From Candidatus Poribacteria bacterium (lineage in GTDB: Bacteria > Poribacteria > WGA-4E > PCPOR2b): a stretch of 43,287 nucleotides of DNA. The position numbers and the translations under genes are program-made. Below, piece by piece: positions 10,629-14,454 of the stretch. Position 1 is the first letter of the stretch. Each line of letters starts with the position of its first letter. The notes beneath the pieces are model-generated. The model was not told the DNA's origin and did not search any database. It was given only the letters and a program-made list of their open reading frames with translations. The stretch lies in NCBI GenBank assembly GCA_028819845.1, contig JAPPKS010000020.1, positions 1 to 43,287 of the forward strand, given 5' to 3'.

Positions 10629-12521
10629 TTAGCTTACCCGTGTTCCCGCCGGCAACGCCTTTTCAATCGTCGCGACTGCGAGGTCATTTCCGTCGGCGGC
10701 CGCAAGCAACATCCCTTGAGATTTAATCCCTCGGATTGTGGCAGGTTCTAAGTTTGCAACGAGTATCACCCGTTTCCGGATTAAATCCTCCGGAGTGTAA
10801 TTCTCGGCGATGCCAGCAACGATTTGCCGCTCTGTATCACCGATACTGACGCGTAGTTTCAGCAGCCGGTCCGCATTAGGCACGCGTTCGGCAGCAATAA
10901 CTTCCGCAACACGCAAGTCTAACGACTGGAAATCTTTGAACGAAACAAGGTTAGCGTCTTCAGTTCCATCTGCATTCTTGCTTTGCACCGATTTCGTATC
11001 CTTTCGTGGGAATATTGGCTCAGGTTTCCGAATTGGAATGTCCGATGGTAATCCGCCCCACTGCGCGACCGTGTCTAATCCCTGCGCGTTGAAACTCTCA
11101 TCGAGCCCCATCTGCTGGCGGATGCGGTTTGCGGTGTCAGGCATAAATGGTGAAATCAGAACGGCAACCGTTCTCAGGGCTTCCATGCTGTTATATAGGA
11201 TAGTTCCCATGCGCCTCTTGTCTTCCTCCGATTTCGCCAGCGTCCAAACCTGTGTCTGCTGAACATAGCGATTGACACGACGCACAAACTCCCAGATAGC
11301 TTCCAACGCTGCATCAAACGCGCGCCGGCTCATAAGCGAATAGACCTCGTTTACTGTCTCGCATGCCGCCTGTTTGACTTCGCTGTCGAATTCGCCGGGC
11401 GTCGAAGGATCAGGAACGACGCCGAAGTGCTTTGCGACAAGTCCTAGCGTGCGATTGAGCAGGTTGCCAAGATCGTTTGCCAGATCAGCGTTATACCTCA
11501 ACACAAAGCGATCGCGCCGAAAGTCGCCGTCATTGCCAAAACTGAATTCACGCATCATATAGTAGCGAAATGCTTCTAAACCAAACTCGTCAATCAGCGC
11601 ATCCATATCAATAATGTTACCTGTTGTTTTGCTAATCCGTTTTCCGTCCTTGGTCAACCACCCGTGTCCGAAAACCTGCTTGGGCAGCGGCAGGTCGACA
11701 GACATTAACATTGCGGGCCAAATTATAGCGTGAAAGCGGGTAATCTCTTTCCCCATCAGATGTAAATCGGCCGGCCAATACTTGCGGTATTTTTCGCCGG
11801 TCTCATGATAATCGAGCGCTGTGATATAGTTGCACAATGCCTCAATCCAAACATAAATATTGTGGGTAGGATCGAACGGCAATGGAATTCCCCACGACAC
11901 GGATGCTCTTGAAATGCTAACATCTTTCAATCCTGACTCGATTGCGCTAAGGATTTCATTACGCCGGCTGTCCGGTTGAATAAATTCTGGGTTGGCGTTA
12001 ATATGATCGAGCAACCGATTTTCGTATTTCGACAATGCGAAAAAGTAGTTCTCTTCTTCCACCCATTCCACGGGCAACCGGTGTACCGGACATGCCTTTG
12101 CTTCGCCGAGTTCTTTATCCATGTAAAAACTTTCGCAGGGGCGGCAATAATATCCCTCATACTTGTCTTTATATATATCGCCGGATTCATGAAGACTAGT
12201 GAGGAGTTTCGCCACGCCGCGTTTGTGTAAATCACTGGTCGTCCTGAGAAAAATATTGTAGGAAATATTTAGCTTCTTCCAGAGATTTGTGAAGGCCGGC
12301 GCTATCTGATCGCAATATTGCTGCGGCGACACTCCATTTTCAGCCGCGATTTTTTCAATGTTTGCACCGTGTTCATCCACACCCGTTAAAAAGAACACAT
12401 CGTCCCCTTTGAGGCTATGATACCGTGCTAGCGCATCGGCGGCAATACTTGTGTACGCATGACCGACATGCGGCTCCGCATTAACGTAGTAAATTGGCGT
12501 TGTGATGTAGAATTTACCCAT
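10629..12521 (-). CDS. metG: Methionyl-tRNA synthetase
   Basis: This enzyme charges tRNA-Met with methionine. It shows the class I signature HVGH (18-21), a zinc knuckle with C126, C129, C144 and H147, the KMSKS-equivalent KRISKTTGN (294-302), an anticodon-binding helical domain, and a C-terminal Trbp111/EMAP-type tRNA-binding domain (about 525-630: DLRVAEVIAAERVPNADRLLKLRV). At 630 aa this is the full two-part bacterial form. A promoter (12775-12803) and a terminator-like palindrome (12555-12580) lie upstream on the same strand, suggesting that expression is controlled by premature termination. Confidence 0.98.
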   Translation of the reverse strand: MGKFYITTPIYYVNAEPHVGHAYTSIAADALARYHSLKGDDVFFLTGVDEHGANIEKIAAENGVSPQQYCDQIAPAFTNLWKKLNISYNIFLRTTSDLHKRGVAKLLTSLHESGDIYKDKYEGYYCRPCESFYMDKELGEAKACPVHRLPVEWVEEENYFFALSKYENRLLDHINANPEFIQPDSRRNEILSAIESGLKDVSISRASVSWGIPLPFDPTHNIYVWIEALCNYITALDYHETGEKYRKYWPADLHLMGKEITRFHAIIWPAMLMSVDLPLPKQVFGHGWLTKDGKRISKTTGNIIDMDALIDEFGLEAFRYYMMREFSFGNDGDFRRDRFVLRYNADLANDLGNLLNRTLGLVAKHFGVVPDPSTPGEFDSEVKQAACETVNEVYSLMSRRAFDAALEAIWEFVRRVNRYVQQTQVWTLAKSEEDKRRMGTILYNSMEALRTVAVLISPFMPDTANRIRQQMGLDESFNAQGLDTVAQWGGLPSDIPIRKPEPIFPRKDTKSVQSKNADGTEDANLVSFKDFQSLDLRVAEVIAAERVPNADRLLKLRVSIGDTERQIVAGIAENYTPEDLIRKRVILVANLEPATIRGIKSQGMLLAAADGNDLAVATIEKALPAGTRVS

Positions 12522-12554
12522 GAACCTGAGTCCCTTTAGACTGAAACAAAAAAA

Positions 12555-12580
12555 CCTATTATCACCGCGGTGATAATAGG
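12555..12580 (-). terminator. Perfect 26-bp palindrome plus T-run in the metG leader (candidate attenuator)
   Basis: The palindrome has two perfect 13-base arms centred on CCGCGG. On the minus strand it is followed immediately by seven T residues, the form of an intrinsic terminator, 33 bases before the metG ATG. No T-run follows on the plus strand. Nothing but the metG promoter lies upstream on this strand, so its likely job is to interrupt the metG transcript. An operator role for the palindrome is an alternative. Confidence 0.75.
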
Positions 12581-12774
12581 CGATTCTACAAAGAAAATGT
12601 TACAGCTAATCCCAAGTCTGATTGTGGCACGCCCGTTATCACTTTAACTTGAACACATGGACATGCCCATATTGGAAAGAATGGCAAAGCGCTTCATTGA
12701 GAATAATCCGGATTGAGATTGCGTGATTAACTTATTTACCAACCTGTAAATTAATGATTTACCTTAACCTTGCT

Positions 12775-12803
12775 ATTTTATCACAATGCCCAATGTATAT
12801 CAA
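12775..12803 (-). promoter_or_regulatory. Sigma-70 promoter of metG
   Basis: On the minus strand TTGATA (12803-12798) and TAAAAT (12780-12775) are 17 bases apart. Transcription would start near 12768, giving a leader of about 245 bases that contains a hairpin GTAAAT-CATTA-ATTTAC and the terminator-like palindrome. Confidence 0.65.
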
Positions 12804-13035: not shown

Positions 13036-14454
13036 ATGTCCCACCAAGAAATTTGCTATATGACAGCTTCCGAGTTGAGCCGACGCATTCGGGCAAGAGA
13101 TGTATCGGTCAAAGAGGTGATGGAAGCCCATTTAGCGCAAATCGAGCGTGTTAACCCTAAAGTAAACGCCATAGTTACTTTGTTACCCGAGCTAGCGATT
13201 GAACAAGCTGCCGCCGCCGACGAGGCACTGGCACGCGGTGAATCGACGGCCGCTTTGCATGGACTGCCGATAGCGCACAAAGATCTGTTTGAAACTCAAG
13301 GAATCCGCACCACATTCGGATCTCCGATTTACAAGGATTTTGTACCGGACGAAGACGCACTCATTGTAGAGCGGCTGAAGACAGCCGGAGCAATCACCAT
13401 CGGTAAAACCAATACACCCGAATTCGGCGCGGGGGCACAGACTTTTAACGCGGTATTCGGAGAAACGCTGAACCCCTACGACACCTCAAAAACCTGCGGC
13501 GGCAGCAGCGGCGGTGCAGCAGCGGCCTTAGCGTGTAGGATGCTGCCAATCGCGGACGGAAGCGACATGGGCGGCTCGTTGCGTATTCCCGGCAACTTCT
13601 GTAATGTCGTTGGTTTTCGCACGTCCCATGGCAGAGTGCCGATATGGCCGAACTTAACAGGTTGGTTTCCAATTACAGTACAGGGGCCAATGGCAAGAAC
13701 AGTCCAAGATGCCGCACTCGTATTGAGCGCTATCGCCGGGCCGGATTCGCGTTCGCCTATCGCCATCGCTGAGCCGGGCGGTCGATTCGCTCGTCCTCTC
13801 GAACGTGATTTTACAGGTGCGCGCATCGCTTGGGGACATGATTTGGGGGGGCTGCCGATGGATGCGCGCGTAACAAACACCATCAATAGCCAGCGGCGCG
13901 TGTTCGAAGACTTGGGCTGCGTAGTCGAGGATGGCGAACCCGATTTTACTGATGCGGATGAAGTCTTCAAGATATGGCGGGCGTGGCGCTTTGAACTTGC
14001 ATTTAACGGCTTGCTGAAGACCCACCGCGGCCAATTGAAGGAGACTATCGTCTGGAATATCGAAGAGGGGAAGAAGTTAGGCGGGCCGCAAATCGGATGG
14101 GCTGAACTCAAACAGACTGAAATTTTTCACCGTGTTCGGAAATTCATGGATACCTACGAGTTTCTAATTCTTCCTGTGAACCAGGTACCGCCTTTTGACG
14201 TGACACAACGATATGTAACGGAAATTGGCAGAGTAAAAATGGAGACCTATATTGACTGGATGAAATCTTGCTACTATGTAACCGTTACGGGTCTGCCCGC
14301 CATCTCAGTTCCATGCGGATTCACACCGGAAGGCTTGCCAGTGGGCGTGCAGATTTTAGGGCGGCACCAAGATGACTTCGGCGTGTTGCAACTGGCTCAC
14401 GCCTTTGAACAAGCTACAGGGATTTGGAAACGCATTCCGTCTATAGCCAAGTAA
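13036..14454 (+). CDS. Amidase signature family hydrolase
   Basis: This is a 472-aa amidase of the GatA / aliphatic-amidase superfamily, which cleaves carbon-nitrogen amide bonds. The Ser-cis-Ser-Lys catalytic set is visible: K82 in AHKDLFE, the cis-Ser in GGSSGGAAAALA (S157/S158) and the nucleophile S181 in DMGGSLRIPG. There are no gatB or gatC genes nearby, and the C-terminal TGLPAISVPCGFTPEGLPVGVQI is typical of stand-alone amidases, so a catabolic or detoxifying amidase is likelier than the tRNA amidotransferase subunit. The substrate is unknown. Confidence 0.93.
   Translation: MSHQEICYMTASELSRRIRARDVSVKEVMEAHLAQIERVNPKVNAIVTLLPELAIEQAAAADEALARGESTAALHGLPIAHKDLFETQGIRTTFGSPIYKDFVPDEDALIVERLKTAGAITIGKTNTPEFGAGAQTFNAVFGETLNPYDTSKTCGGSSGGAAAALACRMLPIADGSDMGGSLRIPGNFCNVVGFRTSHGRVPIWPNLTGWFPITVQGPMARTVQDAALVLSAIAGPDSRSPIAIAEPGGRFARPLERDFTGARIAWGHDLGGLPMDARVTNTINSQRRVFEDLGCVVEDGEPDFTDADEVFKIWRAWRFELAFNGLLKTHRGQLKETIVWNIEEGKKLGGPQIGWAELKQTEIFHRVRKFMDTYEFLILPVNQVPPFDVTQRYVTEIGRVKMETYIDWMKSCYYVTVTGLPAISVPCGFTPEGLPVGVQILGRHQDDFGVLQLAHAFEQATGIWKRIPSIAK

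Follow-up and report, generated by a model that had tools for sequence, protein, structure and literature searches.

A long perfect palindrome followed by a run of T lies directly before the methionyl-tRNA synthetase gene (metG) of a Candidatus Poribacteria bacterium, which raises the question of what this terminator-like structure controls and to which signal it responds. The first-pass annotation of the window (the whole 43,287-nt stretch of DNA that was analysed) had described a promoter-like site, a leader of about 245 nt between that site and the palindrome, and seven T after the palindrome, and had proposed an attenuator of unknown class. Direct reading of the minus strand confirmed this layout, with a leader of about 247 nt:

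12803-12798, minus strand: -35-like hexamer TTGATA, predicted by a consensus scan
12780-12775, minus strand: -10-like hexamer TAAAAT with an upstream TG, predicted by the consensus scan
12580-12555, minus strand: perfect 26-bp palindrome CCTATTATCACCGCGGTGATAATAGG, stem and loop of the putative terminator, read directly from the sequence
12554-12548, minus strand: U7 tract (T7 in the DNA) of the predicted intrinsic terminator, read from the sequence
10629..12521, minus strand: full-length metG (630 aa; NF008900, 840 bits), the putative regulated gene

The two hexamers are separated by a spacer of 17 nt, and transcription of the leader would be expected to start near 12768; the consensus scan found 3 sites of this kind where 2.0 are expected, so that a single site is not above chance. 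The palindrome, in contrast, is the longest perfect one in the window and the sole one with 13-base arms (0.0007 expected with arms of at least 13). It ends 33 nt before the metG start (ATG at 12521) and, together with the U7 tract, forms a predicted intrinsic terminator with a stem of 11-12 bp (12581-12548). As had been argued at first, this terminator can act on metG alone, because the only upstream neighbour, an amidase gene on the plus strand (13036-14454), is divergent.

The first reading had recognised neither a T-box nor a SAM motif, and a covariance search agrees: the metG leader has no Rfam family at E<=5 beyond sub-threshold noise, T-box (RF00230) and SAM families included, and the entire window has zero Rfam matches at gathering thresholds. 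T-boxes, SAM riboswitches and every other Rfam family were accordingly rejected for this leader. The pheS leaders of the phylum are T-boxes (RF00230) scoring 98-112 bits, including one in the window's own genome (L273:1076-1342, 102.8 bits), and a T-box before metG would therefore have been seen by the same search.

Met codons and alternative pairings in the metG leader

The leader contains a Met-rich ORF, MKRFAILSNMGMSMCSS, which had been overlooked and which points to a ribosome-mediated class of attenuator where the class had been called unknown. The ORF ends just 5' of an antiterminator strand, and the following elements can be placed on the leader:

12697-12644, minus strand: leader ORF of 17 codons plus UAA, read from the sequence, in a frame homologous to that of leaders before the threonine synthase gene (thrC)
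12656..12670, minus strand: control codons AUG GGC AUG UCC AUG (Met10, Met12 and Met14), 3 Met in 5 codons
12659..12668, minus strand: region 1, GGGCAUGUCC, inside the Met codons, from the minimum-energy fold and pair probabilities
12634-12626, minus strand: partner of region 1, GGGCGUGCC (anti-antiterminator), overlapping region 2, from the minimum-energy fold and pair probabilities
12631..12642, minus strand: region 2, the antiterminator strand GUGAUAACGGGC, directly 3' of the leader stop, from pairing energy and pair probabilities
12570..12581, minus strand: region 3, GCCUAUUAUCAC, 5' arm of the terminator and alternative partner of region 2, from pairing energy and pair probabilities
12555..12565, minus strand: region 4, GUGAUAAUAGG, 3' arm of the terminator, read from the sequence

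The codons of the ORF are AUG AAG CGC UUU GCC AUU CUU UCC AAU AUG GGC AUG UCC AUG UGU UCA AGU UAA, and a TTG start in frame at 12742 would lengthen it; its Shine-Dalgarno sequence is weak. A Met cluster in an ORF at the same place arose in 2-17 of 5000 dinucleotide-preserving shuffles, depending on the start codons and the window allowed.

The 1:2 hairpin is present in the minimum-energy fold of the leader. Region 2 can pair instead with region 3 at 11 of 12 positions (-14.7 kcal/mol), which 3 of 500 shuffles equalled. The first-pass annotation had noticed that the motif GTGATAA at 12642-12636 could pair with the first terminator arm, and this element is real and transcribed; its description as a weak antiterminator does not hold once the adjacent CGGGC is included, and arose because the Met-rich ORF ending just before that strand had been missed. 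The copy of GTGATAA in the -10 region is irrelevant, since it lies upstream of any transcript.

To follow the switch, the leader was folded as transcribed through region 3, before region 4 is made, and a ribosome footprint was masked. In this computation, 0.3 of the 12 pairs between regions 2 and 3 formed without a ribosome and 1.1 when the stop codon occupied the A site, against 10.6, 10.8 and 10.9 with Met10, Met12 and Met14, respectively, in the A site. In silico, the antiterminator is favoured when a ribosome waits at Met10, Met12 or Met14, and not when the ribosome is absent or at the stop codon; this is a computation on one RNA, whose region 3 also has other weak pairings in the no-ribosome and stop states. 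When region 4 is included, the terminator is the most stable structure in every ribosome state, so the choice must be kinetic, as in other attenuators. A whole-switch shuffle control had a metric that counted any pairing of region 3 and that the real leader itself did not satisfy, and the specific 2:3 shuffle test was used in its place.

Sequence reading and computation show the leader ORF, regions 1-4 with their complementarity, the homology of the leader and the phylum-wide pattern of specificity described below, and the Met-rich ORF with its mutually exclusive 2:3 and 3:4 pairings supports the attenuation of metG proposed at first. Very probably, the leader attenuates metG transcription by a ribosome-mediated mechanism, with charged elongator tRNA-Met as the signal and a logic like that of trp. 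In the course of events that we infer, from the start of transcription through translation of the leader and termination to the response to Met-tRNA, a ribosome would translate the 17-codon leader peptide close behind RNA polymerase. Were Met-tRNA scarce, the ribosome would stall at Met10, 12 or 14 and cover region 1, leaving region 2 free to pair with region 3 once this is made; the 3:4 terminator would then come too late and metG would be transcribed. With plentiful Met-tRNA, the ribosome at the UAA would cover region 2, and without a ribosome the 1:2 hairpin would form instead. With region 2 covered or held in 1:2, region 3 would pair with region 4 and transcription would stop at the U tract.

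Related leaders before thrC

In a DNA search, the palindrome, together with the ~100 nt that precede it, was found before thrC in the rest of the window's family. The metG leader is homologous in sequence and frame to the thrC leaders of eight family members, which have the same terminator and MYM..MGIA..SM peptides (for example, ORFs MQGSHFSSSRIANSVLFANITMYMPGMGIAAFAVSMRTGQSENRQF in L095, MPQSHFNLTSIDILTRSMYMPCMGIATVVSMRPGRRENRQLRM in L097 and MEQFFLKFHLICRLRNAVSTPMYMRSMGIATAMSMP in L118); the shared frame is apparent from QSQSGLF... in the window against QSHFNF... in these leaders. A covariance model scores the window copy at 5e-20, this copy having been in the training set. Among the homologous leaders, the 5' half is poorly conserved, and the reading frame with its Met codons and regions 2-4 are kept. 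The frame of the thrC leaders persists across whole-codon indels, as do the Met codons; outside the Met core, non-synonymous differences dominate, and the codon-position and synonymous counts are by themselves no proof of coding, nor are counts over homologous thrC leaders independent. Covariation within the family is nil because the pairs are too conserved (90.7% and 99.1%, nearly invariant).

The thrC leaders of another family of the same class (f7) are unrelated in sequence and again have Met clusters (MAMPSGMRAMRMP and MVMRRGMRAWRMP). In the first of these (L159), region 2 is GGCGGUGGGCG and region 3 is CGCCCACUGCC, and 0 of 500 shuffles paired as well. In f7 the sequence appears to have been replaced while the predicted complementarity and the Met codons were kept, which is the strongest comparative argument, above the near-invariant pairs within the window's family. 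Across the two families, Met-rich leader peptides with attenuator structures were seen upstream of thrC at L091-L097, L118, L155, L157, L159 and L160.

At metG itself, the leader is far rarer than this. It is absent from the metG genes of other sampled genera of the window's family, and, when sought before metG in other Poribacteria and other phyla, it was absent except in f4/g7; besides the window's genome, one or two of a different family are known to have it. At one metG gene of f4 (L011), a promoter, an ORF ending in AIIMIFMMVELNGG before its stop and a terminator repeat the same architecture in unrelated sequence, and at L016 the leader ORF runs through its terminator. The closest metG genes, from Poribacteria, are 69-72% identical. 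The initial proposal of attenuation had been tied to the presence of the palindrome in relatives, and it stands: the palindrome is lacking at the metG of close relatives and is conserved before thrC. A thrC leader is the probable origin of the predicted metG attenuator. In the window's genome itself, thrC has kept the terminator and lost the Met cluster (its ORF ends in SSSIAAVLFLPMRWSENRQILN and a stop).

By family (TIGR00260), the putatively Met-controlled thrC encodes a threonine synthase, and a second thrC copy, about 35% identical, is present in most genomes. Unlike some family members, the window's genome (G000) has no full-length MetH and, at E<=1e-20, no Cys_Met_Meta_PP (PF01053) enzyme. 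Judging from its gene content, it may lack the usual route of methionine synthesis, genome incompleteness and other routes being also possible; such a loss would fit the movement of a Met sensor from thrC to metG. Another genome (G003) has two extra fragments of thrC leaders, L182:5582-5670 and L181 (G003:C144:7166-7296, minus strand), of which one is a leader ORF without a terminator before a 214-aa protein and the other a terminator without a leader ORF before a Gfo/Idh/MocA oxidoreductase.

Cognate codons across the phylum

Upstream regions of ileS, tyrS, trpS, pheS and hisS from up to 30 Poribacteria were scanned mechanically for a hairpin with a T tract and a short ORF ending nearby, scored by the maximum residue count in eight codons. 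Ile clusters (at least 4 in 8 codons) are present in 9 of the 15 hairpin-bearing ileS leaders and in 0 of 43 others (p 5e-7; for example, SIGIISIIIIIP in L354), Met clusters in 12 of 21 metG/thrC leaders against 1 of 37 others (p 4e-6) and, at metG alone, in 2 of 3 against 1 of 37 (p 0.01), all three p-values being optimistic because homologous leaders were counted several times. Clusters of three Tyr occur in 2/7 tyrS leaders (YLYYYTSV and FLYLFYWCY) and a Trp cluster in 1/7 trpS leaders (DWRWPWRCW, L234), each against 0/51 others. The cognate pattern spans families of the phylum, and attenuation of ileS is apparently phylum-wide. A single exception to the rule is the ileS leader L347 (G016), whose ORF has Ile and also a Met cluster (RMIISRPQMMVDACC). 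The hisS leaders of two f4 genomes (L327 and L330) have strong terminators and no His-rich leader ORF.

Ile-rich leader peptides followed by terminators were also seen before ileS in several families (L340, L342-L345 and L353-L357), as were Tyr-rich leaders with terminators before tyrS (L201, L203 and L215) and Trp-rich ones before trpS (L234, L246 and L248).

We tentatively suggest that Poribacteria may have phylum-wide leader-peptide attenuators (ileS-Ile, tyrS-Tyr, trpS-Trp and metG-Met) alongside a Met-sensing thrC, with a portable Met module that moved here from thrC to metG while the genome's own thrC lost its Met codons. If true, control by Met would imply that this thrC paralogue, which is conserved, contributes to methionine supply or competes with it and is not an ordinary threonine gene.

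Other explanations and known systems

The length of the leader and its terminator would also fit a tRNA- or metabolite-binding riboswitch (a T-box, a SAM riboswitch or a new aptamer), all the more as the same genome has a T-box before pheS. We consider this very unlikely, given the lack of any Rfam match up to E 5 where the phylum's T-boxes reach 98-112 bits, and given that conservation falls on the Met-codon frame and regions 2-4, with no aptamer fold and a poorly conserved 5' half. Alternatively, MetRS or another protein might bind the hairpin, in the manner of E. coli ThrRS, which acts on its own mRNA (thrS autoregulation; PMC2965389), and the palindrome is indeed common to metG and thrC. 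Such autoregulation leaves the Met-rich ORF, the 2:3 complementarity and the amino-acid-matched ileS, tyrS and trpS leaders unaccounted for; with an unrelated hairpin in the palindrome's place in f7, where the Met codons are kept, it is extremely improbable.

More closely related to attenuation is an arrest peptide that would respond, inside the ribosome tunnel, to free Met or SAM and not to tRNA charging, as TnaC does for Trp. The thrC peptides are alike between genera beyond their Met residues (MYMPGMGIA..SMR), and those of f7 too have M.MPSGM; however, the strong hairpin that the same stretch encodes, GCAUGGGCAUUGC...GCGGUGUCCAUGC, also accounts for this conservation, the window peptide has the Met codons without the motif, and the ileS, tyrS and trpS leaders obey a simple codon rule, all of which makes arrest a distant prospect. 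It is also unlikely that a decayed remnant of a thrC leader happens to lie before metG, its terminator constitutive or ineffective. Decay does occur, as in the genome's own thrC leader without its Met cluster and in the broken fragments of another genome, but each of those fragments misses some part, whereas the metG copy is intact in its frame, its three Met codons, its perfect terminator with U7 and its 1:2, 2:3 and 3:4 options.

Among enterobacteria, classical amino-acid attenuators govern trp, his, thr, ilv, leu, pheA and pheST, the last being a precedent for an attenuated aminoacyl-tRNA synthetase operon. In known bacteria, methionine genes depend for their regulation mostly on SAM riboswitches, T-boxes or repressors. 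The metG leader resembles the enterobacterial attenuators in its peptide rich in control codons, its 1:2, 2:3 and 3:4 hairpins and its U tract, and differs from them in the Met control codon, the metG target and the Poribacteria host. A Met-codon attenuator of metG would bring a further amino acid to the classical series, in a phylum that is uncultured. Since Met is also the start codon, starvation should lower initiation of the leader as well as elongation, and the question arises how a leader that, like every peptide, starts with Met still initiates under the starvation that it must report. The leader shared by thrC and metG illustrates how a regulatory module may pass from one gene to another and offers a handle on the role of the thrC paralogue.

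Cognate codons before synthetase genes, for other amino acids, are found in Streptomyces, where trpS and leuS have attenuators (PMC1262725), and in bacilli, where hisS paralogues have a His leader (PMC2965389). Upstream of the methionine operons of Actinobacteria, no conserved RNA structures were reported (PMC1262725). The predicted metL before metNIQ of Streptomyces lividans likewise encodes a Met-containing leader peptide; unlike the metG leader, it belongs to a transporter operon, is leaderless, is of mixed Met/Thr/Cys composition and lacks a typical terminator (PMC8079986). Full-text searches of the open-access literature, which could miss older work behind subscription, turned up no article that brought together metG, attenuation and a leader peptide, nor a reported leader-peptide attenuator in Poribacteria. 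T-box leaders (RF00230) also sense tRNA charging before aminoacyl-tRNA synthetase genes and differ in that the RNA binds the tRNA directly; further T-box leaders before pheS were seen at L271, L278, L283 and L285.
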